A stretch of 51,677 nucleotides of DNA from positions 1 to 51,677 of IMG/VR virus record IMGVR_UViG_3300022602_000142, one strand, 5' to 3'. Every line of letters starts with the position of its first letter. Position 1 is the stretch's first letter. The notes under the pieces are model-generated. The model was not told the origin of the DNA and searched no databases. It saw only the letters and a list, made by a program, of their open reading frames with translations. Of this stretch, positions 8,787 to 33,340 are shown piece after piece. Both the position numbers and the translations under genes were made by a program. This DNA comes from a virus.

Positions 8787-9197
8787 TTATTGAAAGATGT
8801 GGTGATTCTTCTCGCCGTAAATTTTAATATATTTTCCGGAAAGCACGTCCGCCATTACTTCAATAGGACTCCCGGGCCAGCTATCGCCTGGCTTAATCAT
8901 ACCTATTTCACTTTGACGCCAGTGTACAAGTTCATGAAATACTGTGCGTAGTATGTCTACAAGATTGCGATTCTTAGCATAGACCCATACTTTATTATCA
9001 CCTTCTACATGTCGTCCAGTATGATGATTAACCTGAGCATCTTTGGTATCATAACTTAAATCAATCATTGGCATTTTTTGAATGTGTAGTCTTTTACCTG
9101 CCCAGTGAGCAAATTTATTAACTTCTTTTTGTATAAACTCGCCAGCATGACCACTGTCTTCTTTGGCGATTGTATTCATGAATTCTACACTACGCAT
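8787..9197 (-). CDS. HExxH zinc metallopeptidase-like protein with capsid-targeting-like N terminus
   Basis: The 136-aa protein carries HELVHWRQ at about residues 97-104, a standard HExxH zinc site, followed by PIEVMADVLSGKY with a possible third ligand. Size and layout recall minimal SprT/zincin-type proteases. The N terminus MRSVEFMNTIAKE resembles the (I/L)xE-ending peptides of neighbouring late proteins. It overlaps the upstream gene by 8 nt and converges with the plus-strand gene, stop to stop, with no spacer. A packaged or late-acting protease is plausible but unproven. Confidence 0.6.
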   Translation of the reverse strand: MRSVEFMNTIAKEDSGHAGEFIQKEVNKFAHWAGKRLHIQKMPMIDLSYDTKDAQVNHHTGRHVEGDNKVWVYAKNRNLVDILRTVFHELVHWRQSEIGMIKPGDSWPGSPIEVMADVLSGKYIKIYGEKNHHIFQ

Positions 9198-10173
9198 CTA
9201 TAGTTCCCTGTGAAGGTTCTGAAGTTGGTGCTACACTGTTGTAACTCAATGGAAAAGCATTTGCCAATTTTTTTATTTCATCGGTCGCATTATACCCGTC
9301 TCTAACTAAAGGGCTACCGTCCAGTGTTTTAGTTTCACTACTAGCATTTTTAATTAAATCTGCTTTTTGCGCTATAGCATCAGTAATTTGTTTTAATAAT
9401 CCTGGATTAATTTTAGCAAAAGTTTCATCTCTACTTTCATAATCTTGGACAGCATCTTTAATTTGTCTTGTAGCAGCGTGTAATTGCCATTTTTGAAATT
9501 TGTTGCCGCCATTTGATTTATCAAATACATCAATCATCATACCTTGCGTTGCGTATCTGTGAAACCATGTGCTATCACTTGACCCAGTACAAAATCTAGC
9601 AGTAACACCCGCAGCATTGTTGAAAAAATAACAAGCACCATAGTTTAAAGGTATCGATACCCAATATCTGTCATCGTCAATTAATACTATTTCTTTTTTA
9701 TTTTTCTTTGCGGCGTTAATGCGTTCTTCATCTTTTAATCTAGATATTTCAGCATTATAGTACTGCATTCTGTTAATTAATTGTCGTATGGTTTTATATT
9801 GATTTAAATCAGTGTCGGTACTTTTTAATAATTTTCTTTTTAATAATGCGTTATAAGCACCTAACATGTCCACGCCTTCACCTGACAAATCTTCCCAGTT
9901 TAGCGCATTATTGGCATACAGTCTCATTAACCAATCGTCAAATTTGCCCGGGCCACTTAAATCTCCATACATTGAATCTCTTAAACGACTGTCAATTAAA
10001 TCGCTTAATGCTTTTACAACATTATCGTCACTTGGATTTCTGCCTAACTTTACCAATACTTCCTTTGGAAAAGATCTGTCGTGATGTACAGCCAACGCTA
10101 TCATTTTTTTAAGTTTAGGGTCGTTTATTTTTTTATAAACATTTGCTTCTTTAATAATATGTGCTATTTTCAT
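9190..10173 (-). CDS. Putative capsid-targeted phage protein (327 aa)
   Basis: The start MKIAHIIKE|A resembles the T4 capsid-targeting peptide, with the bar marking the possible prohead-protease cut. The middle contains ARFCTGSSDSTWFHRYA followed by MMIDVFDKSNGGNKFQKWQ. I recall this W/FCT...F..YA...DK...KFQ pattern from uncharacterised phage proteins. No catalytic motif is obvious. The gene overlaps the upstream gene by ATGA and the downstream peptidase by 8 nt, so the three form one late operon driven from the box at 11026-11033. Confidence 0.65.
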   Translation of the reverse strand: MKIAHIIKEANVYKKINDPKLKKMIALAVHHDRSFPKEVLVKLGRNPSDDNVVKALSDLIDSRLRDSMYGDLSGPGKFDDWLMRLYANNALNWEDLSGEGVDMLGAYNALLKRKLLKSTDTDLNQYKTIRQLINRMQYYNAEISRLKDEERINAAKKNKKEIVLIDDDRYWVSIPLNYGACYFFNNAAGVTARFCTGSSDSTWFHRYATQGMMIDVFDKSNGGNKFQKWQLHAATRQIKDAVQDYESRDETFAKINPGLLKQITDAIAQKADLIKNASSETKTLDGSPLVRDGYNATDEIKKLANAFPLSYNSVAPTSEPSQGTIDA

Positions 10174-11018
10174 GTTGCTACCAATTCACGTTTTAAGTAG
10201 TATAATATCGTTGACAATTTTTTATAATCACCATTCATAACATCATCTAATATTTTTTCTTTTTCTTGACTGTACACTAATCCAGTTAACGTTACTGCTC
10301 TATTTAAAGCATCTCTTAAAACTTCCCACATGCTACCACCACGATCAGTACTAAATCTATTGGTTTTCAAATCTGTGTATAACATATGTAATTGATCTAG
10401 TCTTTGAATTTTATCTCTCATTAAATCATACGCATCATTTTTTAACATATTCATAGCAACGCCACGAACATCTGCTATAGACTTTTCAACTGTTTTTAAT
10501 AATACAGGTTGAAATTTTTTTGCTAGGTGGCGAATATCATAATCTTTAACAAATTTTTTATTTTTCTCGGTAGACACTGGTAATACAATACGATATGCTT
10601 GTTTAATTTTGCCAACGTGTTCTTTAATAAGGCTTCCAGTGTCTTTTAAATTACCTACGTATGATGCATGACGTTCGCCAGACTGTGTATTATAAGTTTG
10701 TACATTATATCCACCTTGATTTTTCAACTCCATAACAGCAGCACCTACTTCACAAGCAAATATTAACATAACTTTTGAATTGCGGCTATATAGATCGCGC
10801 TCAATGTTTGTTAGTTCTAATTGAGTTTTGTTTATACTTTTTATTGGGACTTGTTTAATATCATGTGGATCGTGGCTTATTTTATATTTTTTGTGTAAGA
10901 TTTTTATTAACTCATTAACACCAGGCGCATCTATTCCTTTGAAATAATTCAATATAGCACTGGCTTCGGTGAGATAGTTTAAAAAATGCCCAAATTGTAC
11001 GGTGTCTTCTACTAACAT
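10170..11018 (-). CDS. Hypothetical late protein with possible internal (LTE|A) cleavage site
   Basis: I do not recognise this 282-aa protein. It is mostly helical, with a hydrophobic core segment (VMLIFACEVGAAVMELK). The first 18 residues end in NYLTE followed by Ala, consistent with the (I/L)xxE prohead-protease pattern of its neighbours, though longer. The ATG at 11018 lies 7 nt after a GATAAATA box, so the predicted transcript has an almost absent leader. It is the first gene of the 8787-11018 operon. Confidence 0.6.
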   Translation of the reverse strand: MLVEDTVQFGHFLNYLTEASAILNYFKGIDAPGVNELIKILHKKYKISHDPHDIKQVPIKSINKTQLELTNIERDLYSRNSKVMLIFACEVGAAVMELKNQGGYNVQTYNTQSGERHASYVGNLKDTGSLIKEHVGKIKQAYRIVLPVSTEKNKKFVKDYDIRHLAKKFQPVLLKTVEKSIADVRGVAMNMLKNDAYDLMRDKIQRLDQLHMLYTDLKTNRFSTDRGGSMWEVLRDALNRAVTLTGLVYSQEKEKILDDVMNGDYKKLSTILYYLKRELVAT

Positions 11019-11025
11019 AATCTAG

Positions 11026-11033
11026 TATTTATC
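11026..11033 (-). promoter_or_regulatory. T4-type late box GATAAATA
   Basis: The minus-strand box differs from TATAAATA at the first base only. Seven nt (CTAGATT) separate it from ATG 11018, so the predicted leader is 2 nt. No Shine-Dalgarno sequence lies between. Confidence 0.7.
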
Positions 11034-14845: not shown

Positions 14846-14909
14846 TGTACAATTCTCCTTTTTGTTCTTGCCTTTTTACGTATGATAAGTAAACTTACTA
14901 TCACAGATA

Positions 14910-15848: not shown

Positions 15849-17900
15849 CTATTTTGATGTTGCTCTATATACGCCATCCCAATTATCTGGAACATCAGTT
15901 TCCATACGCTCAAGCATTAGTTCATAATACTTGTGTAATTCGCCGTTCCAGCCTTTTGCCAACAAACCATCGTTTTTCATACCATTGATGTAAAACTTGG
16001 CAGTTTTCCAATCGCCTTTACGATATGATAACAGAAACTTCTTATGTTTGTCAAGTGCTAGACTGTCATCAAATGGAGCAACTGTGTAAATTTTTACAGG
16101 TTCGGTTTTACCTTTTACCGCAATTAAATCTAATTCAATAACTGTAAATTCATCACAGACTAATTCTGCTGTTCTTGGCCCGAGGATGATTTTGACTCCA
16201 TAGGGTTTGCTTTGTCCTTCCAATCTACTAGCGAGATTGACACCATCCCCGAGACATGTGTAGTCAAAACGTTGAGTGCTACCCATGTTACCAACAACCA
16301 CTGTATCGGTATTAATGCCAAGACCCATACCAAAAGCAGGCACTCCTTCTTTACTAATTTCTTCATTAAATTTCTCCAAATCTTTTAACATTGCTAGACC
16401 TGTGCGCAATGCGTTTTTAGCATGGTCACTGTCATCAAGTGGAGCGTTCCAAAATGCCATTTGAGCATCACCTATGTATTTGTCTAGTGTGCCGTTATTT
16501 TCTAGTATTTTAGCAGTCATTGCTGTCATGTAACGGTTCATGATTTTTGTTAGACCCTGAACATCTTTGCCATAGTGTTCACTGATTGTAGTAAAGCCAC
16601 GAACATCAGTAAACATAATACTAAGTTCACGACTTTCGCCACCAAGTGCTAATAGTTCAGGGTTCTTTTGTAACTTCTCAACCATTGCAGGGCTGAGATA
16701 TGTGCCAAACTGTTTCTTTATTTGTTGCTTTTGCAGGAATTCGCTAACAAACTTGACACCATAGGCATGGAGTGACACAAGGAGTATCGCTCCAATGGGG
16801 AAAGTGATATCAAATAGTAAAAGATGATTACTAAAAATATAGTGGCTAGCATACGCAATGCCAGTAACAATGATAACAACCGATCCCAAACCCACATATA
16901 CATACCTCGTTAATAGTAATAATACTATACCTAACACCAATATAGCAAGTAATTCGGCGCCGTCAGCATAATCTGGGCGACTAATCACAACACCATTCAT
17001 CATAGTGTTTAATAAATGTGCTTGTAGATAATGTGGATACACTGCGCCAATACTTGTTGGTACTGGGTTACTAATGCCCGCAGCAGTTGGGCCCACAATT
17101 ACTACACCGCCATTGAAATCTTTTGGCAAATGTGACAAACTACTAATATTAAAACTTTGACTGTAATCTACCCAAACACGACCCAAATTATCTGTTGTAA
17201 TAGGACCATATTGAGGTATGCGCATTTTTTCAACGCCAAGTTCATTGAGTTTAATTTGTGTTGTAGTGTCACCACTTGCTACACGCAATATTTCCATAGC
17301 AAGACTTGGATATAAGTTACCATCTACACTTGTAATAAGTGGCATTCTGCGTGTAACACCGTCAACTTCTGACAATGTATTAACTGTACCAATGCCCACA
17401 GCATTTTGTTCAAGTACAGGTATGTTAGCAATAATGCCTGGGTACTTTACAATGCGATCTTGAAAGTCACTGTTGATTACAGCAGTACCAGGTTTTCTTG
17501 GAATATTTTTAGTTTTATCACTTGGCACGTTTACTAGTACAACAGGATGTTGATACATAGCACTTGCTAAAGCACTGTCGCCATTTAATCTATCAGGTTC
17601 ACTAAACATAATGTCTAATACTACTAGACCTGCGTTTCTAGCATATAACTCGTTTACGATTTTGGCATATTCAGTTCGTGGCAATGGCCATTGTCCATAC
17701 TTGTTAAGTGCTTCTTCGTCAATGTTTACGATAGTAATAGGACTATCAATTAACGCACTGGGTTCTTTGTTGGCAATAAGCGTATCAAAGTAACGCAAAC
17801 GTATGCTTTCTACAAAATGTGTATCGATTACTCGTACAGTTAGTACAAGTGCTAATGTGAGTAAGGCAGTCCAAGGACTGAGTAGTATTTTCTTTAACAT
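15849..17900 (-). CDS. CHASE2-domain membrane adenylate cyclase (class III)
   Basis: The 683-aa protein has an N-terminal membrane anchor (about residues 8-25), then a CHASE2 extracytoplasmic sensor (about 30-300, with IVNIDEEAL and GLVVLDIMFSE). Three membrane segments follow (about 315-385), then a class III cyclase domain. Both metal Asp residues (432 in FTDVRGF, 478 in KYIGDAQ), Lys474, the TCLGD Thr548, Asn555 and Arg559 are present, so it should be active and prefers ATP by the Lys/Thr pair. It is the downstream gene of the curli-FecR cluster. CHASE2 cyclases neighbouring FecR proteins are known in bacteria; in a phage this is unusual. Confidence 0.92.
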   Translation of the reverse strand: MLKKILLSPWTALLTLALVLTVRVIDTHFVESIRLRYFDTLIANKEPSALIDSPITIVNIDEEALNKYGQWPLPRTEYAKIVNELYARNAGLVVLDIMFSEPDRLNGDSALASAMYQHPVVLVNVPSDKTKNIPRKPGTAVINSDFQDRIVKYPGIIANIPVLEQNAVGIGTVNTLSEVDGVTRRMPLITSVDGNLYPSLAMEILRVASGDTTTQIKLNELGVEKMRIPQYGPITTDNLGRVWVDYSQSFNISSLSHLPKDFNGGVVIVGPTAAGISNPVPTSIGAVYPHYLQAHLLNTMMNGVVISRPDYADGAELLAILVLGIVLLLLTRYVYVGLGSVVIIVTGIAYASHYIFSNHLLLFDITFPIGAILLVSLHAYGVKFVSEFLQKQQIKKQFGTYLSPAMVEKLQKNPELLALGGESRELSIMFTDVRGFTTISEHYGKDVQGLTKIMNRYMTAMTAKILENNGTLDKYIGDAQMAFWNAPLDDSDHAKNALRTGLAMLKDLEKFNEEISKEGVPAFGMGLGINTDTVVVGNMGSTQRFDYTCLGDGVNLASRLEGQSKPYGVKIILGPRTAELVCDEFTVIELDLIAVKGKTEPVKIYTVAPFDDSLALDKHKKFLLSYRKGDWKTAKFYINGMKNDGLLAKGWNGELHKYYELMLERMETDVPDNWDGVYRATSK

Positions 17901-17910: not shown

Positions 17911-18483
17911 TTAATGTCTAATATAACTATAACTACCGCAAATAAGGCAACTTATAGTCATGCTGCCACTGTTACTTACTGTAGGATTGTCCTGTATTAC
18001 AGTAACTGTTGCACCGCTGCTTCCATTGAGTGTTAGACTAAAACTTTTATCTGCTCCTGAATTTCCACTCTGTGTAACATTAACTGTATTAGCACTATTT
18101 AGCGTTCCTGCTGTAGTTGACAGTATGAAGGTGTTGTTACTTGCTCCTGATTGAGTGACACTAATGCCATTGGCATCACCGACAACGCCATTGATTTTTG
18201 CTACATTATTGCCTGAGCCACCTTGTATAACATTAAATGTATTGTTAATACCACTTTGTAAATCTATGCCAGCAATCAATGATCCAGTACCATTTTGTGT
18301 GACAGTAAACGAATTGCCGTCAACCGGGCTCATAAAGCCAGCAGTGATTTTGATATAGTCACCGCTATATTCTTGACTGACATTATATGTGTTATTGTCA
18401 CCAACCTGATTGATATAGATGTTTGGGTTATTCTGAGCAAAACAAGTTAATGGAAACAATAATAGTAATAGTAAGTATTTCAT
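17911..18483 (-). CDS. Curlin-repeat secreted protein
   Basis: The 190-aa protein starts with a signal peptide (MKYLLLLLLFPLTCFA). It then has about six imperfect repeats built on N-x-(V/I)-x-Q-x-G-x-x-N, for example NTFNVIQGGSGNN and NTVNVTQSGNSG, the pattern of curli subunits CsgA/CsgB. It ends with a pair of Cys residues (ISCLICG). It would be exported by Sec and then by the CsgG pore, forming amyloid-like fibres. It starts on the FecR stop (TAATG). A second curlin-like gene lies at 19622. Confidence 0.8.
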   Translation of the reverse strand: MKYLLLLLLFPLTCFAQNNPNIYINQVGDNNTYNVSQEYSGDYIKITAGFMSPVDGNSFTVTQNGTGSLIAGIDLQSGINNTFNVIQGGSGNNVAKINGVVGDANGISVTQSGASNNTFILSTTAGTLNSANTVNVTQSGNSGADKSFSLTLNGSSGATVTVIQDNPTVSNSGSMTISCLICGSYSYIRH

Positions 18484-19613
18484 TAGTTTTGCCTCAATAT
18501 AATTGTACTACTTTTGCCGTCATTGACACGGTTCTTAATAGTCACGCCATTTTCAATCATTGTTATTGTAACACGATCTTGCGTTGTGGTAGTAACACTT
18601 TGGACATCGCTGCCGTCATCACGACTTAATGTTACATTTATTGGGGTGACTAATTTAGTCACATTACTACTTGGAAACCAATCTGGCAATAATTGATTTT
18701 CTGGATTTAACATATTAGATAATAATGCTGCTGCGTCCATACGTAACTGCTCACTTAATATATGAAAGATATCATCTAAAAAGTTTTGCTGTAACAATGA
18801 AATAGCCAATGGATCATCACCCAATGGATTATAATTTGCTAGTTCATTTTTTAAGAAATCTTGTTTAAGATAATCAATATCTAACATGTCACCATTTTGT
18901 CTAATTACATTGGTGTCTTTGCTAACTTCCTGTTGTTTGAATTCTTTGGGTGGGCTAACGATCAATAAGTTATTAATCTGATTAGGATTCAAATTAAGTA
19001 CAACAGGTTTACTGGGAGCAAGTTGTCTACTAACAACTTTTGTACCCATAAAGGGTTTATCTAATGTAACGCTACCTGCGTCATTATAAACATCAATAAC
19101 ACCTGTCTTACAATCGGTTTCTACATTAATATAGTTTGCAGGACAACTTGGCAATAGTATAATACTACTCTCGCCAAACTCATCTACAACTGCGCTGAAA
19201 TCTGTACCACGAACTGCCACAGTGGCTGCGGGTGTGTTAATGTTCACACTGTTAGGATTGTTATGTGCTATAGCGCCACTAGCATAGCGTACTGTGCCAG
19301 CAGCAAACTTTAATCCTAGTTTGTTGGGAGTTTTACCTTTGGGATCATAAACAAAATCATCAATAACAAGTTTGCTATTTTCATTGACTTGTACTTTAGT
19401 ATCATCAACAAATGTAATATCGGCAATGCCTAATGTTGTTTTGATTGTGTCGTTCATTTCAACGCCAGTACCTTTAGTACCTTGTAATGTATTTTTGTCA
19501 CGAACGATTTGTGGAACTGTTTTAACTTGATTTGTAATACTACCCACACTAGCATAAGTGTGGGGTGAGAATATCAATAATAATAAACCCAACCCCACAT
19601 ATCTTTTAGTCAT
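18483..19613 (-). CDS. Secreted FecR-domain protein
   Basis: The 376-aa protein has a signal peptide (to about residue 21, HTYA). It then carries a FecR domain: GVEMNDTIKTTLG, ADITFVDDTKVQVNENS, AGTVRYASGAI and NINTPAATVAVRGTDFSAVV. The last is the typical end of that domain. The C-terminal 180 residues are of unknown type. Standalone periplasmic FecR proteins next to CHASE2 sensors are thought to act in signal detection. Here it lies between two curlin genes, suggesting it senses or anchors the fibre. Confidence 0.85.
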   Translation of the reverse strand: MTKRYVGLGLLLLIFSPHTYASVGSITNQVKTVPQIVRDKNTLQGTKGTGVEMNDTIKTTLGIADITFVDDTKVQVNENSKLVIDDFVYDPKGKTPNKLGLKFAAGTVRYASGAIAHNNPNSVNINTPAATVAVRGTDFSAVVDEFGESSIILLPSCPANYINVETDCKTGVIDVYNDAGSVTLDKPFMGTKVVSRQLAPSKPVVLNLNPNQINNLLIVSPPKEFKQQEVSKDTNVIRQNGDMLDIDYLKQDFLKNELANYNPLGDDPLAISLLQQNFLDDIFHILSEQLRMDAAALLSNMLNPENQLLPDWFPSSNVTKLVTPINVTLSRDDGSDVQSVTTTTQDRVTITMIENGVTIKNRVNDGKSSTIILRQN

Positions 19614-19621
19614 TATAACCT

Positions 19622-20479
19622 CTAGTGTGTATTCGAACTAATGGTAAATGTATTACCGCTGCCCGTACTGTGTAAGTTTATAGTACTATTAAAACTAGTA
19701 CCTAACTGTGTAATGTTTGCGATGTTACTACTACCAGTTAAACTAATTACAAAGGTATGCCCTCCTGAACCTGTACCTCCTTCTTGATCTAATGTTACTT
19801 CGTTGCTTGCGCCTACAATTGTAATACTTGCTGACCCATTGTCATCAGTGGTAGCACTAGTTGTGCCACTTAGATTTACCGCAGTAAGACCTATAGCACT
19901 TCCACCTATACCTTGATTGACAACTACACTGTTATTACCACCACCTGAGATGTCAATATTTTGTGTTATATTGCTACCATTGATAGTAGATATCACACTG
20001 TTATATGAACCACCTGCAGTTGTAATTGTACTGCTGTTCTGACTACCAAGCATAAAGAATTTTAACAGTGAATAATTACCTGTTAATGTAGCAGATAAGT
20101 TATTGCTTTCGCTTTGACCAGTACCGTCGCCGTTACTGTCAATAATCGCATTGCCATTATTACCTGTTAAACTATAGGTGTAATTATTACCATTGCTAAC
20201 TCCATTTGCTGTAGTTGTAGCAATACCCATGCTTAATGTATTACCTGTACCAACTTGGTTTATTGTAACATTATTGTTGTCGCCATTAATAATCGCAGGA
20301 TTGGTACTACCATTACCTGCTCCTGGCAACCCTTGTAAAATATTACCCGCACCATCTTGGTTTACACTTACAGTAGCATTGCTACCAGTTTGACTGATAT
20401 AAATGCTGTTATCTCCTGCAACTGCTGTAACAGTTATTAATAATCCTAAAACTAAGGCCATTAATTTACTGAACTTCAT
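19622..20479 (-). CDS. Curlin-repeat secreted protein, second copy
   Basis: The 285-aa protein has a signal peptide (about residues 1-22, ending AVAG). It then has curlin-type repeats such as NSIYISQTGSNATVSVNQDG, NNVTINQVGTGN, NSVVVNQGIGG and NIANITQLGTS, separated by longer Asn/Gly/Ser/Thr insertions. It is larger and less regular than the 17911 protein, so one may act as nucleator and the other as main subunit by analogy with CsgB/CsgA. It lies 1 nt downstream of csgG. Confidence 0.8.
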   Translation of the reverse strand: MKFSKLMALVLGLLITVTAVAGDNSIYISQTGSNATVSVNQDGAGNILQGLPGAGNGSTNPAIINGDNNNVTINQVGTGNTLSMGIATTTANGVSNGNNYTYSLTGNNGNAIIDSNGDGTGQSESNNLSATLTGNYSLLKFFMLGSQNSSTITTAGGSYNSVISTINGSNITQNIDISGGGNNSVVVNQGIGGSAIGLTAVNLSGTTSATTDDNGSASITIVGASNEVTLDQEGGTGSGGHTFVISLTGSSNIANITQLGTSFNSTINLHSTGSGNTFTISSNTH

Positions 20480-20480
20480 T

Positions 20481-22745: not shown

Positions 22746-23114
22746 TTATCTATCGTAAATGCTAGGTTCGCTTAACGGACTGTAATGTTGATGTAATGCT
22801 TTTTTGAAATGCTCTAAATCTTTAATAGCCATGTTTTGCATTTCTTCACGATCATTTGGCTTTAATGAAAGATATTTTTGTAAAAATCTACGTGTTACTG
22901 ATAATGGAATTTGGTGTTTAGTTCCATCTTTAAACTTTACCGAATAGTCACCATCGGTATCCAATGCTTTACGCAACTGCATTATAATATGCGGCACGCT
23001 ATCACTTTCAGGATCTTCTGAATGATCTGGTGTTTCTTCCCAATCTAAAGCACCTTTAGTAACTTCTTTGGGTTTTCGGGTTTTCTTTTCAATTAAAAAT
23101 TCTGTGCTTTTCAT
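22746..23114 (-). CDS. Putative capsid-targeted late protein (122 aa)
   Basis: Start placed at ATG 23114, which gives MKSTEFLIE|KKTRK, very close to the T4 internal-protein leader MKTYQEFIAE|A. The remaining 113 residues are acidic, then basic (SVTRRFLQKYLSL) and unrecognised. The ATG lies 5 nt after an AATAAATA box, so the predicted transcript starts on the ATG. Confidence 0.6.
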   Translation of the reverse strand: MKSTEFLIEKKTRKPKEVTKGALDWEETPDHSEDPESDSVPHIIMQLRKALDTDGDYSVKFKDGTKHQIPLSVTRRFLQKYLSLKPNDREEMQNMAIKDLEHFKKALHQHYSPLSEPSIYDR

Positions 23115-23118: not shown

Positions 23119-23715
23119 CTATTTATTAAAAATACTCCATTCTGTGTAACATACTTCTCTTGAGACTGGCGCACCTCGAACTAATTGATCTACACAATGT
23201 CCAAATGCGTTATTGTGTATTATAACACTATTAGCATAGCAAGGAAAGGTAATTCCATAATTATTGGGTGAATTGCATACGCGCAGTCTACCATCGTATA
23301 ATTTATCGTATTCACTGTCCCAAAAACTATGATGATAAAACACTGCTACCCAAAATTTATTGACATCATTAGTTGGGGGCAATGGATGGTGTTTATGCCA
23401 GTGAACCCCATTATATCGATTATTAACTAACATGTTAAAGTTAGTCATACTAGCATTTAAATTTAAATTTAAAAAAAAGTTTTTTATAATTTTTGCATAT
23501 GACACAAAATCTATGCCTATGTGTGGCTCCCAACTGTCTAAGTCTTTCCAATTTTTTATTCTATAAAAAACTTTTTCATTTGATGTTATATTGGGACCAG
23601 TAAAGTCGTATATTTTTTGTTTGGAAATTTGTAAATTTGAAAATAAATCTTGATCTAACACATCAAGAATTTGAAATATTTTATGATCATCTAGTGTATG
23701 TTCAATTATTTCCAT
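23119..23715 (-). CDS. 2-oxoglutarate/Fe(II) oxygenase-like protein
   Basis: The 198-aa protein has a cupin-like core: HWHKHHP (His105/His107), then WVAVFYHHSFW, DGRLRV and a distal IIHNNAFGHCVDQL block with His173. SREVCYTEW follows, with Arg186 in the 2OG-carboxylate position. This fits phage 2OG-Fe(II) oxygenases of the prolyl-hydroxylase type. It overlaps the YafQ-like gene by 10 nt, and its last codons contain the AATAAATA box of the next gene. Target unknown. Confidence 0.55.
   Translation of the reverse strand: MEIIEHTLDDHKIFQILDVLDQDLFSNLQISKQKIYDFTGPNITSNEKVFYRIKNWKDLDSWEPHIGIDFVSYAKIIKNFFLNLNLNASMTNFNMLVNNRYNGVHWHKHHPLPPTNDVNKFWVAVFYHHSFWDSEYDKLYDGRLRVCNSPNNYGITFPCYANSVIIHNNAFGHCVDQLVRGAPVSREVCYTEWSIFNK
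23120..23127 (-). promoter_or_regulatory. T4-type late box AATAAATA
   Basis: The box sits in the last codons (Asn-Lys-stop) of the 23119 gene. Five nt (GTATT) separate it from ATG 23114, which places the predicted first transcribed base on the A of ATG. Confidence 0.6.
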
Positions 23716-24509
23716 ACATCTTGGTTATGAAGTTTATTTGCCATACTAGACATGGTTTTAAGTTTCATTGGAGTGCCAGTACCTAAATCATCATGCCCAA
23801 AAATTCCAAACAATTTGATGATTGTAGGATTTTTGCCTTCTATGGTATAAACTATACTTAAATCTCTGGTTAAATGTGCATGTCGTAAATTTAATCCACC
23901 ATATGGACTAGCAGGCACACCCAACATTGTATCGCCCTTACCAAATTGTGCAATTGGATTTTGTTTTTTAAAATTGATAAATGCATTTAGACGATCAGTT
24001 AACTTACCATGCTTTTTCATAGTTTCATCAAATAGTGGGCAGGTTAATATTTGTACATTATTATTACTTTCATTTAAATTCCATGAATTTTCTTCAATGG
24101 CTTTTTTAAGTTGGTTGTATACGCTGGGCACTTCACTATATTTGTTTGGTAGATTTTTTAATTGACGGCGAACACCTTTAATGCCTTCTATAATTTCACG
24201 CCATTTATCTTTAGTAAGTTGATCTTCATATTGTTTGCCATATAAAAATCCAGCATCTACTTTTTGTTTAAGTTCTAAAAATTGTTTTTTACGTTCTTTT
24301 AATTTTTTATATTCATGTATTAGCGTTGGCTCTAATTCGCTACGCAATGTATTATAAACAATTTCATTACGTGGATCGTGTTTTTCTACGACTTCAAAAT
24401 AGCCATTAGGGTGTTTTACAACTTTATGCCCTGTAGCATCTGCTGCCTTTTTAGCAACGGACAATGCTATGTATGATCTATTTTCTATAAGAAATTCGTT
24501 CGCTCTCAT
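23706..24509 (-). CDS. Capsid-targeting-like peptide plus YafQ/RelE-like toxin domain
   Basis: The 267-aa protein begins MRANEFLIE|NRS, like the T4 capsid-targeting peptide, followed by a basic helical region (KLKERKKQFLELKQK). The last 90 residues resemble YafQ/RelE mRNA endonucleases: a compact beta fold with LRHAHLTRDLSIVYTIEG followed by KLFGIFGHDDLGTG, close to the YafQ DWxLIYK...TGSHSDLF ending. No antitoxin gene is adjacent. The combination suggests an mRNA-cleaving protein delivered with the genome, which is inference. Confidence 0.6.
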   Translation of the reverse strand: MRANEFLIENRSYIALSVAKKAADATGHKVVKHPNGYFEVVEKHDPRNEIVYNTLRSELEPTLIHEYKKLKERKKQFLELKQKVDAGFLYGKQYEDQLTKDKWREIIEGIKGVRRQLKNLPNKYSEVPSVYNQLKKAIEENSWNLNESNNNVQILTCPLFDETMKKHGKLTDRLNAFINFKKQNPIAQFGKGDTMLGVPASPYGGLNLRHAHLTRDLSIVYTIEGKNPTIIKLFGIFGHDDLGTGTPMKLKTMSSMANKLHNQDVWK

Positions 24510-25288
24510 CTTGGTAACAATGGTCTGTTATGACCTAATGCTCCTTGTCCTTGTAATGATTTACTATCACTTTCTGGCCAGCAATAAATGTAACTGCCAA
24601 ATTCATCACGTACTAACATCCAACGTATACCAGCAGCAGTATACATAGCTATTTCAGCATTATAGCCCGGTATTATATTATTAAAATCTATATTACCTAT
24701 ACCACCTAAGTCTTTACCATTATTACGCAACCAACCCGCTACACTATTAACTTCTAACGGTGTGTTAGGGCCCATGCCGCCTAAATTGCCTATCATTGTA
24801 ATTTCATCTGTTGGTGTATTTGTAAACGTTTGAAATAATCTTTTACCTAATGTGCGAATGCCCCTACTCATATTTCCTGGCAAGTTTGCTACTTTATGCC
24901 ATTTAGGACGTTGTACACCTGCAGTTTGTAATGATTGATTGGCTACACTAGGCAAATTTTCTGTATTTACACGTATATCAGGTAATGTTTCAGGTTCAAC
25001 AGTTGGATATCCTGTATCTTCTGGATCAATTTCAATATCACGCATACGACTTAATAAATCTGCCATACGTTGATTTGGGGCAATTCCGCTTGTTGCTCGT
25101 AATGTATCACTTTGACTTGCTGTAGGTCTGTTAGGTGTTTGTTGTTTTTTAGGTTCTTCTTTTGGTTTAGTAACAGGTTTATCTGCAGGTTTATTAGGGT
25201 TAAGGAGATTATCTAATCCCAAATTCTTTTTTTTAGTTTTTGTATCAGTTTTTGTTTTACGTGCTTCAAGTATTTCATTTATAATCAT
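24506..25288 (-). CDS. Putative capsid-targeted late protein with low-complexity linker (260 aa)
   Basis: The start MIINEILE|ARKTK fits the (I/L)xE rule. Residues 10-70 are Lys/Thr/Pro/Gln-rich and probably disordered. The C-terminal 120 residues form a domain with GNLGGMGPNTPLEVNSVAGW and GIRWMLVRDEFGSYIYCW that I do not recognise. ATGA overlaps link it to the YafQ-like gene and to the 72-aa gene. Confidence 0.6.
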   Translation of the reverse strand: MIINEILEARKTKTDTKTKKKNLGLDNLLNPNKPADKPVTKPKEEPKKQQTPNRPTASQSDTLRATSGIAPNQRMADLLSRMRDIEIDPEDTGYPTVEPETLPDIRVNTENLPSVANQSLQTAGVQRPKWHKVANLPGNMSRGIRTLGKRLFQTFTNTPTDEITMIGNLGGMGPNTPLEVNSVAGWLRNNGKDLGGIGNIDFNNIIPGYNAEIAMYTAAGIRWMLVRDEFGSYIYCWPESDSKSLQGQGALGHNRPLLPR

Positions 25289-25503
25289 CTTTTTTTCACC
25301 CTACTTCTAAAACCAGGCGGCGTACTTAAATCCTTAGGATCTCTGGCAAAAGCTAAATCCATATATTCTTTACTGCCTAACTTTATACCACGATCTTTTA
25401 TTATCTGAGCAATATTAGGACGTTGTTTATCTTTAATATCGCTGATTTTATCTACACCAGCAATACGTTTCCACCTTTCAAGTTCCTTTTCCCAATCGTC
25501 CAT
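25285..25503 (-). CDS. Small basic hypothetical protein (72 aa)
   Basis: A charged helical protein (WEKELERWKRIAGVD) with a basic end (RSRVKKR). No family recognised. Its ATG overlaps the nuclease stop (TAATG) and its TGA overlaps the next ATG. Confidence 0.55.
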   Translation of the reverse strand: MDDWEKELERWKRIAGVDKISDIKDKQRPNIAQIIKDRGIKLGSKEYMDLAFARDPKDLSTPPGFRSRVKKR

Positions 25504-26336
25504 TAGTCATCCTTAGCATTAGCGCCGCATTTAGTTTTCTTAGCACTAGTGAGTTTGCCGTAGTCAATAGGCCATTCTTTACCAATTTCTAATTCTTTGC
25601 CGTTTTTAGGCAACATAATTATTATATTGCTTTCTGTCATAATGTCTTTAACTGGTTTACGAAACTTAGTTAAGTCATTACCTAAATTAGGATATGGAGC
25701 AACGTGTGGGAATTCCCAACCTGCATATTCGCCAGTCTTGTCATTGAACACAACTTTGAAAAATGCATGTGGAACAACTACGCCGTTGCCAATCTTTTTA
25801 TCAGTATTATCATATACTGCACCGCTGATTGCTGTGTAGTTTGTGTTACCCTGTACTACCCAACCACGAAAACTTGTTTCTAATAATTTCCATATACCAC
25901 GATTTAAACTACCTGCTTGTGGTGTCATATTAGTCATTAAGAAACTTTCATATTCAACTTGTTGATCCCAACTTTGATCACCATCTGGTGCCATGTGACC
26001 TTTGTCATATCCTGTTTTAGTATAATCATCAGGTGTTGCGCCACCTTTAACACTATTATCTGCTGTAAATGCATTACTACGTGTTACACAACCTAATGCG
26101 TGATCAGGAGTTAATGTCCATTCTACGTATTCTGGAATTTTACTATCGGCATCATAACCTACAAGATATGCTTGACGGCAAATCTGTGTTAATGTTTTCT
26201 TTGCTACAGGAGCACCATAAATTGCGTGTTCGCTACACTGTGCTGCTGGCAATGGATCACGTTGTGTCCATGCATTACTACTTGAACAATAACTTAATAC
26301 TAATAAGGCACCGATTATATATAAAAGTTTTTTCAT
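25503..26336 (-). CDS. Secreted DNA/RNA non-specific endonuclease (NUC family)
   Basis: A signal peptide (about residues 1-22, MKKLLYIIGALLVLSYCSSS) precedes a NUC-family domain with DKGHMAPDGDQ at 111-121 (catalytic His114). MTNMTPQAGSLNRGIWKLLE follows, supplying the magnesium-binding Asn/Arg/Glu (about Asn145 to Glu153). Serratia-type nucleases cut single- and double-stranded DNA and RNA. With a signal peptide it would act in the periplasm or outside the cell, perhaps degrading incoming competitor DNA or DNA freed on lysis. AAGAGA precedes its ATG. Confidence 0.85.
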   Translation of the reverse strand: MKKLLYIIGALLVLSYCSSSNAWTQRDPLPAAQCSEHAIYGAPVAKKTLTQICRQAYLVGYDADSKIPEYVEWTLTPDHALGCVTRSNAFTADNSVKGGATPDDYTKTGYDKGHMAPDGDQSWDQQVEYESFLMTNMTPQAGSLNRGIWKLLETSFRGWVVQGNTNYTAISGAVYDNTDKKIGNGVVVPHAFFKVVFNDKTGEYAGWEFPHVAPYPNLGNDLTKFRKPVKDIMTESNIIIMLPKNGKELEIGKEWPIDYGKLTSAKKTKCGANAKDD

Positions 26337-26337: not shown

Positions 26338-26778
26338 TTATTCTCTTGCTGTTTTTAATGTTGCTTTTAACATCCATACCTTTTTAGTATAGAGGTCTTG
26401 CAATTCTGCCATATAATTGGCAATACCCTGTGCATTTTGCTGTGTGGCTAAATCAAACACACGCAAACTTAATTGACTCATTGTTACACTGTTTTCTAAT
26501 AATTCTTTGAACATTAATTCTGCTCGTGGAATCATTGGTTGTTCTTGTATAACACTAAGTTCAATCATACGACTTAAAGTTTCTGGACTGTAAACATCTA
26601 ATGTGCGAATGTATTCAGCAATTACATCAATTGTTTCATATACTTCTTCATAAAATTTATTTAAAAATTTATGATATTGTGGGAAGTTGCTGCCTTCGAT
26701 ATTCCAGTGAAATCCATGTATCTTTGTGTATAAAACAAAGGTACTACCCAATAGCGTTTTTAATTCATCTGCTAACAT
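26338..26778 (-). CDS. Dps/ferritin-like protein
   Basis: The 146-aa protein is a four-helix bundle with HGFHWNIEG (21-29), then HKFLNKFYEEVYETIDVIAEYIR, the Dps ferroxidase signature (HxxxxH/W...D...E). Dps proteins bind iron and coat DNA. Here it lies directly upstream of the nuclease and behind a TCTAAATA late box with AGGA before the ATG. A role in protecting phage DNA from oxidative damage is likely; the basic N-terminal DNA-binding tail of classical Dps is missing. Confidence 0.8.
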   Translation of the reverse strand: MLADELKTLLGSTFVLYTKIHGFHWNIEGSNFPQYHKFLNKFYEEVYETIDVIAEYIRTLDVYSPETLSRMIELSVIQEQPMIPRAELMFKELLENSVTMSQLSLRVFDLATQQNAQGIANYMAELQDLYTKKVWMLKATLKTARE

Positions 26779-28086: not shown

Positions 28087-28092
28087 TCAATT

Positions 28093-28121
28093 ATTATACG
28101 TTATTTTATTATATTTGTCAA
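28093..28121 (-). promoter_or_regulatory. Consensus sigma70 promoter, start on the ATG
   Basis: TTGACA (28121-28116), 17 nt, TATAAT (28098-28093): full consensus on both hexamers. Six nt (AATTGA) separate the -10 hexamer from ATG 28086, so the expected first base is the A of ATG. Confidence 0.85.
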
Positions 28122-28262: not shown

Positions 28263-28271
28263 ATGTTATTC

Positions 28272-29792
28272 CTAAAACGTTAAACTCATTGTTTTACGTG
28301 TACCTTTTCGTTGAAAGGGCCCGTATTCTTCTTCGTATGTTGCGGGTATACCCACACCGCCTCCACCGCCAATACCTGCGCTGCCACCACCTGCTCCAGT
28401 ACTACTAGTTTCACTTACGAATTCTTTTTTAACTTCTACTTTTACAGTGGGGTGTTTTTCTTTCATGAATGCTAAGGCTTTAAGTAACTCTGAAGTATCA
28501 TTTATTCCAAAATACATAACTGGTCTGTTTTTAATATAAAGTACACGTTTTTGTTGTTTTTTTGGAGGAGTGTATTTGATACCTTCGTCTACACCGTCAC
28601 TTGATTTTACTTTAATTTCAGCATCGGGTTTTTCTTTTTTGTAATCTTTTGCTAACTTGTGTAATTTTTTTACATCGTTACTTGTAGTAATGCTTTTGCC
28701 ATTCACGATTAATGTGTAATATGTTTTTTTAAAGTCAGTTTCTTTTAATCCTGCAGGCTCAGCCTTATAAGGGGTGTAGTTATCAAAACTATCCATTTCT
28801 TCTAAGCCGCTTACTTTAGGCTCATATATACGCCAACCCCCTGGTTGATAACCTACTGGGCTTTCATTTGGTGTTTCACTGATAGCACCGCGAAATTTAC
28901 GACTGCGTAATCCACCATATGGATTTTCTTCTGGAGTGCGTTGTGCTGCGTACTCTCCTGTGGAATCTTCTAATGTTGTTTTACTGCGTCCAGCACCTAA
29001 GGCTGCACCACGTGTATCGCCATCATCAGCAATTGGACTTGTTGCTTCTAATGTATTTCTACTTGCTCGTTCTGCTGCTGCTTTAAACGGTTTAAGTAAT
29101 AATTCTAATGCTTCTTTTGTAGTTCTTTTGTTTGCTAATACCGCATTCCTTGCCTCTACAAAGTCATTTAAATTCATATTATATTTTTTAGCCAATCTGA
29201 ATAATTGTTCTACAATATCATTTAATTCGTTAAAGGTATATCCTTTAATAATTTGTCTAGCAGCAAGATATGCTATATCAGCATCGCTAACTTTACCTTC
29301 AGTGATTGGATCAAGTTTATTAAGAAGTTCTATTGCTTCTTCATGACCATATGTTGTGTAGGGCTGACCTTTAATAGTGAATCTTACAAATCCAGATTGA
29401 TTTCTATCAAGTTCGGCTATGCCAACACCTTTCTTTTTAAATACTGTTTTATCAAAACTAACTGGTCTTTTAACCCAGCCATGCTTTAATAATGCTTTTG
29501 GTATTTCAGCAACACCATGCATATTGCCATAGTCATATGCTTCGGTACGCACATTGTGTGCTTTGCCACTACGATTTGGATTTGGATCTTCTCTGCGTTT
29601 ACGTCTTGCTGCTGTGGCTCTTTTCTTTTTACCTAAACTATGTGCTTTTGCTTGTGGTAAACATTTTGGTTTACCCTCTTTACTACTACCACGCGCACAG
29701 GGACCTTTGATCTTGCCATCTGGCCCAAAACGAACCCACTTTTCTTTAAACCATTTATGTAGGTTTTCTGTGATAATATCATTAATTTTCAT
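28272..29792 (-). CDS. Putative capsid-targeted protein with Cys/Lys-rich N-terminal domain (506 aa)
   Basis: The start MKINDIITE|NLHKW fits the capsid-targeting pattern. Residues 10-85 form a basic, Cys-containing module (FGPDGKIKGPCARGSSKEGK, then KCLPQAKAHSLGKK and ARRKRRE) that I recall from marine phage proteins of unknown role. Two later modules around 350-385 and 410-450 look like small repeated alpha/beta units (TYYTLIVNGKSITTS and KRVLYIKNRPVMYFG). The end is Gly-rich. ATG 29792 lies 6 nt after a GATAAATA box. A nucleic-acid-binding packaged protein is plausible. Confidence 0.6.
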   Translation of the reverse strand: MKINDIITENLHKWFKEKWVRFGPDGKIKGPCARGSSKEGKPKCLPQAKAHSLGKKKRATAARRKRREDPNPNRSGKAHNVRTEAYDYGNMHGVAEIPKALLKHGWVKRPVSFDKTVFKKKGVGIAELDRNQSGFVRFTIKGQPYTTYGHEEAIELLNKLDPITEGKVSDADIAYLAARQIIKGYTFNELNDIVEQLFRLAKKYNMNLNDFVEARNAVLANKRTTKEALELLLKPFKAAAERASRNTLEATSPIADDGDTRGAALGAGRSKTTLEDSTGEYAAQRTPEENPYGGLRSRKFRGAISETPNESPVGYQPGGWRIYEPKVSGLEEMDSFDNYTPYKAEPAGLKETDFKKTYYTLIVNGKSITTSNDVKKLHKLAKDYKKEKPDAEIKVKSSDGVDEGIKYTPPKKQQKRVLYIKNRPVMYFGINDTSELLKALAFMKEKHPTVKVEVKKEFVSETSSTGAGGGSAGIGGGGGVGIPATYEEEYGPFQRKGTRKTMSLTF

Positions 29793-29936
29793 ATATTGTA
29801 TTTATCGAAAGAAAGTAACTTTTGGTTTAACTTAACCCACTGACTGTGTAAGTATGCTGCTTCGTTATAATGTTCTTCTAATTGTAAAAAATTAATTATG
29901 CTATAGTAAATGTCTTTTGATAATACTGATTCAAAT
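29789..29936 (-). pseudogene. 3' part of a frameshifted gene, read in the +1 frame
   Basis: From the TGA at 29931 the +1 frame stays open to TGA 29791-29789. It encodes about 45 residues of ordinary-looking protein (FESVLSKDIYYSIINFLQLE, then HYNEAAYLHSQWVKLNQKLL). Its stop forms an ATGA overlap with the next gene, as genuine neighbours do. It has no start codon of its own, so it is the continuation of the 29931-30158 frame. Confidence 0.6.
29799..29806 (-). promoter_or_regulatory. T4-type late box GATAAATA
   Basis: The box lies in the final codons of the frameshifted gene. Six nt (CAATAT) separate it from ATG 29792, giving a predicted leader of 1 nt. Confidence 0.65.
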
Positions 29937-30158
29937 ATGAATAGGCCAATTTGGATCTGTTCTGTATTTAAATTCTGCTTTTAACCAGTTATTGATGTTT
30001 TCATTTATATAGACGTTATTATATAAAAATGATAGTTTAGAAGTTAAATCTGAAGTTCCAAACAAATTTTTAATTTTGTCATCTAAAAAAAGCATCCACC
30101 TAACATGATTACCCCCACCTCCCCATGGAAATTCTAGTCTTACAGGGAAGTCAAGCAT
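29931..30158 (-). CDS. 5' part of a frameshifted late gene (75 aa before TGA)
   Basis: MLDFPVRLEFPWGGGGNHVR begins a domain that I recall from longer phage proteins carrying an FPWGGGG(N/E)HVRW start and a C-terminal FE...YxxIxxFxxxExxYxxAxxxHxxW block. Here the reading frame meets TGA at 29931-29933 in the context ATT-TGA-A, and the matching C-terminal block follows in the +1 frame to 29789. The cause is a one- or two-base T-run change, a sequencing error or a programmed +1 shift. It starts 3 nt after the 30162 gene stop. Confidence 0.6.
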   Translation of the reverse strand: MLDFPVRLEFPWGGGGNHVRWMLFLDDKIKNLFGTSDLTSKLSFLYNNVYINENINNWLKAEFKYRTDPNWPIHI

Positions 30159-30161
30159 ATT

Positions 30162-32141
30162 TTATTTTTTAAGGCCCTTTAGTATAGAACTTTCGTTCTT
30201 TACACAGTTAGGAACAGTTTTGCCGAACATTTTTTTGTTACCTTCTTTGTGATAACCTTTCCAGCAATTTTCATCTAATTCATCTTCGGCTAAGCCAAAT
30301 GCTTTAAGATTTTGTTTTTCAGTTTTTTCATTGTGTGCTAATGTTTCTGGGCCTGGCGCTTCGCTAAGTTTTGCTAAGTCCTTGGGTGTAAAACTAACAA
30401 CTGGATCATATAATCCATATTTGTTGGCTACAGTATCATTCATTTTAAACTTAGGTAATTTTTTAAGCAATGCTCTAATCTGATTAGCATTTCTTACTAT
30501 GCCAGTTTGTTTAATGTTAAACTCTTTCCATGCTTCGCCATTGCTACTTAAATTTTCTTGGTTCAAAAATACTGTGCCATCTTTACTAATGTCTACAACA
30601 ATTTTTTTAAAATCATCGCTTTCACTTAATCCTGCAGGCCTAACTTTAATTTTACGTTGTGCTTCGCCAGCATCACTGCTACTAAAAATACTTGGTCCTT
30701 CACTTAAATGATTGTATTCCCCGCGGGCTAATCTGTCAACTACGGCTTTAGTAAACGCAGTAACATCACTGCTACCTATTTCTTGCAAATCGTTCCCACC
30801 ATATTCTGCTGCTATGTCATCAACTGCTTGCCCTACTTTTACTGGACCATATTTTGCTAGTAAATCATCGTGCGCATGTAAAATTCTATTAATTATAGCA
30901 TTGCGTATACCATCTACCATTTCTTTCGATTCGTGTAATGAACTACTATCACCTGATTCTAAATAATCAATCATGTCTTGAAATGGCTCGTGCGCTGCTG
31001 TATAGAATGTATTTTCTAAACCACGAACTGCGTCTTTAACATCAGTTAAATGATAATCTAAATCTACCCCAACACTTTTAGCAATATCGTTTATCTCTGC
31101 TAATATTGACATCAATTCATATTCTTGTTGTTTTATAGCTTTAGCAGCATACAAGGCTTTTTGTTGTGCGGCTTTTAATTTAGTTATTTGGTCTGAGTTT
31201 GCTGCTTCGTTTGTTGTACTTAATTTTTTTAATGCACGCTCTATCCCACGTTGACGCATTTTGTCTTTATGTGTTTCACCTGCTTTGTTATATGGATCGC
31301 CCTTTTTACCAGAACTATAACTTGCGCCGGTAGCACTTAATAATTGATCTTCAATATTTTTTGGAATATAACGTTTTACTGTTTCTTTACTTATTTCATT
31401 TACTTGTTTTTCATTTTCTTTAAAAATACCAGTTGGTCTTTCATAACGACCGGTAAATTTATTATATTCATAATCACTTGGATATCTTGGAGTTTGCTCA
31501 CCTGCATATTCTACTTTTACGATTTTTCTATTAGGATATGATTTTTCCCAATTGGCTTCATATTCTTTTGGAAATTCATCGAAATTGGTTTTTGTATATG
31601 CTGTTTTTACAGTAGGGTCATTGCCATCAGTATAACTTATTTTCCAAAGATGATCGCTTTCAAAACTACTTTCGTTTGTTTTCTTTTTGCTGCCCCATTT
31701 GCCGTGGCTTTTACGACACTTAACTAATGCCCCACTGGCATATGCACTGGGCCATACTTTATAACGACTTTTTACTTTATAATAGCAAGCATCTTTTTTT
31801 TCATTAAGTTGGCTTTCATGTACTATTTCGCCACCACATTTAGGACATTTGCTTTCGTCTACTTTATCTTTTAATAAAATTTTTACAACTTCTCTTGCCA
31901 AATCTTTTGTTTTGTTTGGAGTTTTTGCTGAAAGTAATTCAGGGTTTCGCAACATAAACTTGATAATTAAACCACTTAAAAATGTATGCGCATAGTTTGT
32001 GTCAGCAACTTTATCTAAATTAGGCATCATATTGCTGCTTTTAAAAGCATCTGCAACTTGTTTTGCTTTTTTGTTTTCAGGTGCCCATGGGCCTTTTACT
32101 ACCTCGCCTTCTTTTTGTATGCCTTTTAGTATTGAACTCAT
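30162..32141 (-). CDS. Mosaic Cys/Lys-rich late protein (659 aa)
   Basis: Start set at ATG 32141 (MSSILKGIQKE|GEV), which overlaps the upstream stop by ATGA. A longer upstream frame is unlikely. Visible parts are a CPKCGGE knuckle near residue 105 and a basic module (DACYYKVKSRYKVWPSAYAS followed by GALVKCRKSHGKWGSKKK). Charged coiled-coil stretches follow, and a Cys-Lys ending (ENCWKGYHKEG...VPNCVKNES) finishes with SSILKGLKK. The terminal SSILKG repeats the N terminus. I associate these modules with marine phage proteins of unknown role. Packaged DNA-binding protein is a guess. Confidence 0.6.
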   Translation of the reverse strand: MSSILKGIQKEGEVVKGPWAPENKKAKQVADAFKSSNMMPNLDKVADTNYAHTFLSGLIIKFMLRNPELLSAKTPNKTKDLAREVVKILLKDKVDESKCPKCGGEIVHESQLNEKKDACYYKVKSRYKVWPSAYASGALVKCRKSHGKWGSKKKTNESSFESDHLWKISYTDGNDPTVKTAYTKTNFDEFPKEYEANWEKSYPNRKIVKVEYAGEQTPRYPSDYEYNKFTGRYERPTGIFKENEKQVNEISKETVKRYIPKNIEDQLLSATGASYSSGKKGDPYNKAGETHKDKMRQRGIERALKKLSTTNEAANSDQITKLKAAQQKALYAAKAIKQQEYELMSILAEINDIAKSVGVDLDYHLTDVKDAVRGLENTFYTAAHEPFQDMIDYLESGDSSSLHESKEMVDGIRNAIINRILHAHDDLLAKYGPVKVGQAVDDIAAEYGGNDLQEIGSSDVTAFTKAVVDRLARGEYNHLSEGPSIFSSSDAGEAQRKIKVRPAGLSESDDFKKIVVDISKDGTVFLNQENLSSNGEAWKEFNIKQTGIVRNANQIRALLKKLPKFKMNDTVANKYGLYDPVVSFTPKDLAKLSEAPGPETLAHNEKTEKQNLKAFGLAEDELDENCWKGYHKEGNKKMFGKTVPNCVKNESSILKGLKK

Positions 32142-33340
32142 CTTATTGTCCCGTTTAAAAATAACTCTACAATTGTTTGTATATCCATACGTAACGTTTT
32201 TGCTTTGTTTTCGTATTTTAAATTGCCATAAGTTTCTGGCCATTTCTTTTTAATATCATTCATTACACCATATACGCCCATTTGTTCTTTAGATTTGTCT
32301 TTCCCCATATCGCTATAGTTTAAAATCCATCTTATGTATCCTGGTAATTCTCTACGTAATTTTTTATCACCTAAATAAACACCGTCGATCCAATCATGTA
32401 CTTTTAACCAAAAACGTTGTGGATTATCAAACAAAGACATGTCATATTGATTTGTATATTTTGGAGTTGCAAGATTTAAATTTTGTTGTTCTACGCCTTC
32501 ACCGACGCCGCCGGCAGCGATAACACCGCCAGTCATTTCGTTAACACCATCAGCACTTTCTTGTTCCATGCTATCAGCAACGCTATCAAGATAGTCACTT
32601 GCTAATGTAATATAACTTTGTTGCCATGCCATGATGTTTTGGCGTTGACCTAATAATTCATAAATCTTTTTAGCACTCTTTACAGCACTACGCATTTCGC
32701 TACGTGCCATGCTAATTTCGTGATCGTTAAAACCTTGTTCTTCGCTCATAGGCATTTGTTTGCTGACCATGTAATCACTTACACTTGTCATCATTCCTTT
32801 AATTTGTCCAATTTTTTCACTTACCCATTCTGGGAATTGTGTGCTACTCTCTAAATGACTGTATAATTCTTGTGCGTTACGCATAATAGTTTTTAAACTA
32901 TTTTTAACTGTTTCTAATTCGTGATCTGCTTTGTCAGGATCATGTGCGTGAAATCCTGCACGTAATCTTGGGCTTTGTCCTGGAACTAAAATTACATCTT
33001 CTTCACTTAGTGACGCTTCTTTCAATTCAGACGGTTTAATTCCTGCTTTAACAGCAGATACTTTGTCTTTAGGATCTTTAGTTTTTTTATATTTGGCAAT
33101 TAACTTTTTTTGTTCAGGGGTTAATTTGTCTGATTTATTGCCCTCTTGGATACCTTCAAGTACAGGACTATTCATGTATGGGCCTTTTCTTTTCATTTTG
33201 CCGCCCTTTTTAAGCAATTTGCTTACTGGTTCTTGACCACTAACTTTAACGCTTTCACGTTTAATTGCCTTGCCCATGGGTGCTGCTACAGGGGCGATGC
33301 CGCCTGCTACTGTTGTTTCTGTAATGTTCTTTATTTTCAT
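32138..33340 (-). CDS. Putative capsid-targeted late protein (400 aa)
   Basis: The start MKIKNITE|TTVAG fits the capsid-targeting pattern. A basic stretch (KLLKKGGKMKRKGPYM) and NSPVLEGIQEGNK near residues 58-70 echo the SSILKGIQKE start of the next gene. The rest is charged and helical (SEMRSAVKSAKKIYELLG, then DYLDSVADSMEQESADG) with no catalytic motif. A GATAAATA box at 33365-33372 precedes it with a 20-nt leader. Function unknown. Confidence 0.6.
   Translation of the reverse strand: MKIKNITETTVAGGIAPVAAPMGKAIKRESVKVSGQEPVSKLLKKGGKMKRKGPYMNSPVLEGIQEGNKSDKLTPEQKKLIAKYKKTKDPKDKVSAVKAGIKPSELKEASLSEEDVILVPGQSPRLRAGFHAHDPDKADHELETVKNSLKTIMRNAQELYSHLESSTQFPEWVSEKIGQIKGMMTSVSDYMVSKQMPMSEEQGFNDHEISMARSEMRSAVKSAKKIYELLGQRQNIMAWQQSYITLASDYLDSVADSMEQESADGVNEMTGGVIAAGGVGEGVEQQNLNLATPKYTNQYDMSLFDNPQRFWLKVHDWIDGVYLGDKKLRRELPGYIRWILNYSDMGKDKSKEQMGVYGVMNDIKKKWPETYGNLKYENKAKTLRMDIQTIVELFLNGTIR

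Follow-up and report, generated by a model that had tools for sequence, protein, structure and literature searches.

Predicted capsid-targeting leaders of the T4 kind on diverse proteins, and candidate modular cargo polyproteins, in a freshwater giant phage and its relatives

The T4 prohead protease gp21 is reported to recognize exactly L/I-X-E and to cleave behind the Glu; among T4 virion components, the shortest propeptide has 7 residues (Alt) and the longest 65 (gp23) (PMC9026906). The T4 internal proteins IPI, IPII, and IPIII, together with Alt, are unrelated proteins that carry a short N-terminal leader ending in (I/L)xE, with the core EF(I/L)xE (T4 MKTYQEFIAE). Among virion-carried proteins with a first role on the host, T4 is known to have an RNA-polymerase modifier and inhibitors of type IV restriction. 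For targeting in T4 the Tyr4 position of the leader matters, and Asp in place of the last Glu stops cleavage and leaves targeting intact. In the jumbo phages phiKZ and SPN3US, a protease related to gp21 cleaves head cargo behind Glu, and a role like that of capsid-targeting sequences (CTS) has been proposed for the propeptides, several of which exceed 100 residues (PMC5694885). The polyvalent proteins of Iyer et al. (2017, PMC5512222) are long chains of unrelated domains with predicted injection. The exchangeable internal-protein loci of T-even phages, as far as they are described where Repoila et al. (1994) is cited in PMC12373910, combine diverse cargo with a constant leader.

We analyzed a 51,677-base IMG/VR virus fragment (hereafter the window) from an uncultured freshwater giant virus of bacteria. 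The isolated-phage DNA polymerases nearest to that of the window are from Phosso, Atu_ph07, CBB, GAP32, 121Q, and K64-1 (42 to 49% identity), all giant myoviruses of the T4 superfamily, and the gp23 of the related contig G004 is nearest to those of Vibrio phage 2.275.O and PA5oct-like phages (66 to 67% identity). Nine mostly unrelated genes of the window, two of them with degenerate peptides, make up the leader set (Table 1). Their leaders are probably T4-kind capsid-targeting peptides on proteins that are predicted to be packaged, cut, and probably injected.

The closest known kinds are the T4 CTS proteins and the polyvalent proteins, and sequence comparison supports membership in the T4 CTS kind. 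The original prediction of T4-like leaders is supported: the window leaders resemble those of T4 in length, EF(I/L)xE core, and cut motif. Late boxes, a gp21-family protease with a conserved triad (in relatives), and ADP-ribosyltransferase cargo (Alt in T4, ART-PolyVal in relatives) are also shared. In contrast to the 10-residue T4 leader, those seen here usually have 9 residues and are of the MRAxEF type, and Tyr4 is not conserved in window-type leaders. Seven to nine leader genes occur in a 51.7-kb fragment, the cargo classes are wider and include polyprotein fusions, and packaging is predicted. Leader-bearing relatives share with polyvalent proteins the PolyVal ADP-ribosyltransferase and kinase domains; long chains of unrelated domains and ParB-like, acetyltransferase, and peptidase-like modules are further points in common. 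However, the modules here abut Glu-ending sites and a repeated linker, the predicted cutter is of the gp21 type rather than an embedded metallopeptidase, and small basic Cys modules dominate. Unlike the long propeptides of phiKZ and SPN3US, leaders here have 8 to 18 residues, as in T4. The difference from the T-even loci, within what the citing source says of them, is that polyprotein breakpoints cluster here at an intragenic linker conserved in DNA.

Table 1. Leader genes, late-type boxes, and other features located in the window and in Atu_ph07
Feature	Position	Strand	Leader or sequence	Remarks
B-family DNA polymerase	3277-5991			Close relatives in many viral contigs, including the 335,035-base contig G004
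136-aa HExxH metallopeptidase-like protein	8787-9197	-	MRSVEFMNTIAKE (degenerate)	Close relatives MRTQEFMHTLADD
327-aa protein, unknown fold	9190-10173	-	MKIAHIIKE	G005 homologue, 45% identical, MRAIHFLTE
282-aa protein	10170-11018	-	MLVEDTVQFGHFLNYLTE followed by AS	Longer leader; late box directly upstream
Late-type promoter box	11026-11033	-	GATAAATA	Precedes 10170-11018
122-aa protein	22746-23114	-	MKSTEFLIE	Homologues MRSNEFLIE (G001), MKINELFE (G002)
Late-type box	23120-23127	-	AATAAATA	Precedes 22746-23114
267-aa protein	23706-24509	-	MRANEFLIE	G001 homologue MKPFEFISE
260-aa protein	24506-25288	-	MIINEILE	
506-aa modular protein	28272-29792	-	MKINDIITE	Leader abuts basic Cys-containing module NLHKWFKEKWVRFGPDGKIKGPCAR
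Late-type box	29799-29806	-	GATAAATA	Precedes 28272-29792
659-aa modular polyprotein	30162-32141	-	MSSILKGIQKE	Ends in NESSILKGLKK
400-aa protein	32138-33340	-	MKIKNITE	Homologues MKINDIFE (G002), MRATDLME (G003), MKINQIILE (G004)
Late-type box	33365-33372	-	GATAAATA	Precedes 32138-33340
Atu_ph07 gp054-gp063 tandem array	L141:1844-10592			

The original prediction listed eight peptides, and every one is the N terminus of a minus-strand open frame where it had been placed. The exact T4 gp21 motif, (I/L)xE ending at residue 8 or 9, closes six of the eight and is absent from the two that the prediction had called less clear, the 8787 peptide (AKE) and MSSILKGIQKE (QKE). A leader gene absent from that list, 10170-11018, has an 18-residue leader, and an N-terminal peptide of about 7 to 20 residues ending in L/I-x-E is found in this gene and in the same six. 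The proteins are unrelated, as had been stated: once the leaders are removed, no mature part matches another at E<0.1. Few loci were recovered when relatives of the 23706 and 9190 proteins were searched. The AlphaFold model of the 8787-9197 protein (pLDDT 82) came nearest in the PDB to Wss1, selecase, and IrrE-type zincins, all weak matches (E 0.07 and above). Its peptidase domain, a separate gene in the window, stands in G002, G003, and G005 behind differing N-terminal modules, each with its own leader, and is fused in some leader proteins (L328). The frame 42002-42544 (MSKIINE/GLDYHDM) was considered for its INE ending and excluded because it lies within the replication cluster and the starts of its homologues vary.

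A broad motif, M.{2,9}[IL].{1,2}E, was set aside: 20 of 63 window genes match it, and chance would give nearly as many (13 expected). One cleaner test used the published T4 rule alone, recording the end position of [IL]xE along each N terminus in the window and five relatives. At residue 9 there were 36 genes against a background of 8.3, and for residues 8 and 9 pooled, 51 against 16.5 expected (p=4e-12). In the window alone, 7 of 61 genes have an (I/L)xE that closes at one of these two residues, where 0.9 were expected (p=3.6e-5), a count that takes in any gene and not just the listed leader genes. A stricter regular expression was fixed on the six genomes and then run on 567 non-redundant genes from other loci, dissimilar to the design set. 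It matched 53 of the 567 N termini and 3 of 3398 internal methionines (p=4e-42), and (I/L)xE at residue 9 was found in 57 held-out genes versus 8. Since the expression was designed after the six genomes had been viewed, unbiased evidence comes from the held-out and a-priori tests alone. Leader-type and polB genes served as anchors for choosing the held-out loci, so the 9% leader frequency is regional rather than genome-wide; the motif test is unaffected.

The consensus from 101 non-redundant 9-residue leaders is M-(R/K)-(A/I)-x-E-F-(I/L)-x-E. Seventy leaders of the form MRAxEF(I/L)xE are encoded by 69 distinct DNA sequences, so the leader is conserved as a peptide, under selection at the protein level. 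The same scan recovered T4 IPII, IPIII, gp21, gp22, and gp24; CBB has almost no leaders of the window type, although gp21 is present. Several of the genes had been said to lie behind late boxes, and a late-type box (NATAAATA) does stand just upstream of four of the nine (22746, 28272, 32138, and 10170). Such boxes are commoner before leader genes than before other genes, both in relatives (9/25 versus 99/827, p=0.002) and in the held-out loci (15/53 versus 60/514, p=0.002).

A gp21-like prohead protease, for which the original prediction had suggested a search, was not found within the 51.7-kb window and is encoded by relatives. Genes of this family were found in G004, PA5oct, Atu_ph07, CBB, and T4, and in 10 of 12 further contigs of 244 to 525 kb carrying leader or polyprotein genes. 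An alignment of the G004, PA5oct, CBB, and T4 proteins shows conservation of His, Ser, and Asp at the catalytic positions of T4 gp21. G004 encodes both gp21 and gp23, with a gp22-like gene adjoining. Its gp22-like scaffold contains 23 [IL]xE motifs versus 7.8 in shuffles (z 6.3), T4 gp22 has 16 versus 5.8, and the PA5oct counterpart has 19 versus 8.8; in window polymerase and Clp proteins the count is at expectation. The richness of the scaffolds in [IL]xE supports its use as the cleavage motif in this lineage. Read by eye, the precursor of the major capsid protein of G004 has KKQLLAE/STAG at the expected place of a T4-like cut (slash).

Isolated phages link some leaders to virions. PA5oct gp333 begins with MKINDIITE, a 9-mer identical to the 28272 leader; it is annotated as a virion protein detected by ESI-MS/MS, and its gene lies between portal and protease. 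PA5oct gp246 (MKIKDILVE) and gp104 (MKILEFNLTE) were also detected by mass spectrometry, and gp075 and gp110 were not. Under a loose definition, PA5oct leader genes were not enriched among the MS-detected proteins (3/7 versus 53/153, p=0.47). In Atu_ph07, most members of the tandem array gp053-gp063 have M(R/K)WxQLxE-type leaders and a YRGM motif. The array sits inside the virion-rich cluster CDS 31-76, which contributes 29 proteins to the virions (PMC6102473), a placement at the level of the cluster and not of each gene. No Pfam family confirms an ADP-ribosyltransferase in this array. A tblastn search with the full 28272 protein found nothing in isolated phages, and single modules used as queries found cyanophage homologues, near neck, terminase, and portal genes. 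Two of these phages, the marine P-SSM2 and ACG-2014d, combine the small basic modules in one protein (L346:8635-9450, L347:8902-10101).

Cargo domains in relatives are, by profile matches, of effector type. Pfam searches of leader-bearing relatives identified ART-PolyVal (2e-15, L328), AAA_33/zeta-toxin-like (L015), Kinase-PolyVal, GNAT, amidoligase, and cell-wall hydrolase domains, and those of G003 and G004 found GP88, ASCH, and more GNAT and amidoligase domains.

The window genes spanning 28272-32141 are predicted members of a modular cargo-polyprotein class, which goes beyond what had originally been noticed. The NLHKWFKEKWVRFGPDGKIKGPCAR module of 28272-29792 has a charge of +17 over 75 aa. 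The 30162-32141 protein contains a KKDACYYKVK module (a match to DUF5872 in relatives), a CWKGY module, other segments, and several internal (I/L)xE sites. Modules of the two proteins are fused into one chain in G002, G003, and G004, and their relatives hold several disparate domains per chain, including GNAT and zinc-ribbon domains (Pfam) and ParB-like domains (as read from the sequence). Polyprotein modules abut (I/L/M)xE sites or a QGVAEG linker. In 46 of 47 distinct contexts of the NLHKWFKEKW module, the residue that precedes its N/D is Glu, and in the other the Glu is one residue further back, both at the N terminus (as in the window) and inside chains; the KKDACYYKVK module is preceded by (I/L/M)xE in 34 of 34. 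Chains are joined by ESSI(L/M)xG(L/I)..E, the internal form of MSSILKGIQKE, and by QGVAEG. The proteins of L113, L197, and L216 start with MSSILKG and repeat ESSI(L/M)xG(L/I)..E internally.

The linker is conserved in DNA as well as in protein. GVAE occurs 126 times against 11.7 expected, with up to 11 in one ORF, and its frame is open at 66 of 66 local core sites. QGVAEG is encoded by the 18-mer CAAGGTGTGGCGGAAGGC in 26 of 43 cases, with GTG used at 81% (background 11%) and GCG at 95% (background 9%). The exact 18-mer is present in at least 120 stretches of viral contigs; its 26 scattered matches in 257 Gb of bacterial and cellular genomes are compatible with chance. Homology breakpoints fall on linkers in both partner chains in 266 of 2167 cases, versus a mean of 6.3 for random pseudo-linkers. 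Because it is conserved at the DNA level, kept in one frame, and a site where breakpoints cluster, the linker behaves as a recombination seam. Early (I/L)xE is found in 36 of 83 linker genes versus 157 of 947 others (p=5e-8), and in some linker genes the leader is fused straight to the linker, e.g., L411 MRATEFIIEGVAEG. The conserved DNA form was not found in the window, where 28272-29792 has a single GVAE at about 29516 in another form. We infer that the prohead protease cleaves the linker, in which VAE departs from the strict L/I-X-E rule. No embedded peptidase was found in the polyproteins scanned by Pfam, and the string GVAEG occurs in one paper of the collection searched, an unrelated one. 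Linker motifs reach 12 per ORF in relatives. The polyproteins L235:3436-6702, L228:1-2922, and L223:1-1950 carry 5 to 12; L228 and L223 have common modules in differing order, L228 has a weak match to ribosome-modulation factor, and L235 has zinc-ribbon matches.

A leader pattern produced by chance, from AT-rich codons and a permissive motif, is extremely improbable. The broad motif is indeed common, yet chance is strongly rejected by the a-priori test and by the stricter one, held-out genes included. Chance is refuted as a full explanation, and it may account for single weak members, e.g., MRSVEFMNTIAKE. In favor of an N-terminal signal with another purpose, such as membrane or nucleoid localization, a degradation tag, or a translation start context, many proteins carry the peptide, and some PA5oct leader proteins are not MS-tagged. 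Such a signal is nevertheless improbable given the conservation at the protein level with an invariant Glu ending (I/L)xE, the saturation of the scaffold with this motif, its presence at the end of the major capsid pro-region, and the Glu-ending sites at module borders inside polyproteins.

Head-targeted, processed proteins might also be structural core or DNA-condensing components that stay in the head rather than injected effectors. Small size and strong basicity (+17/75 aa and +11/43 aa) mark the modules with the best conservation, like a DNA-binding core component; PA5oct gp333 is located among head genes, and the cyanophage module homologues among those for neck, terminase, and portal. 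An effector role is no more likely than a structural or DNA-binding one in the head for several of the cargoes. As a general account, however, a purely structural role seems unlikely, since it is hard to see one for cargo of the ADP-ribosyltransferase, kinase, zeta-toxin-like, acetyltransferase, and peptidase types, and T4 internal proteins are basic yet also injected (PMC9026906, PMC12373910).

If the leaders are capsid-targeting peptides on injected cargo, as we favor, then late in infection M(R/K)xx(E/D)(F/I/L)(I/L)xE would direct each protein into the prohead core, and a gp21-type phage protease would then cut after the leader's Glu. The mature proteins would remain in the head with the DNA, with probable ejection into the next host. 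The system would be enlarged here, with the leader on many differing enzymes and basic DNA-binding-like modules, and with some cargo fused into polyproteins in which additional Glu-ending sites lie between the modules. Similar cargo strung into linker-joined polyproteins in related giant phages suggests a larger, exchangeable injected arsenal than is known. More tentatively, giant T4-superfamily phages may join dozens of effector or DNA-binding modules via an 18-bp linker that is both a swap seam and a protease cut site, so that one leader loads many injected proteins.

Such leaders would allow prediction, from sequence, of which giant-phage genes are virion-carried and act first on the host. 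The consensus is specific enough to list candidates across large numbers of metagenomic phages, and the cargo behind it already includes ADP-ribosyltransferases, kinases, and toxin-like kinases. Linker-joined polyproteins, if true, would give phages a new way of packaging many effectors together, and the mechanism of exchange would be visible; the leader with its cognate protease could be a packaging tag for other phages.

Other genes of the window lie among or near the leader genes. A DNA/RNA non-specific endonuclease (25503-26336, 4e-38) with a signal-peptide-like N terminus is within the leader-gene run, and a ferritin-like protein (26338-26778) is encoded behind a run of leader genes. A curli-type cluster at 17911-21817, unusual cargo for a phage, encodes CsgG (1.4e-44), CsgF (1.4e-16), a curlin-repeat protein (weak match), and a FecR-domain protein, and it adjoins a gene for a CHASE2 and adenylate/guanylate cyclase protein (15849-17900).
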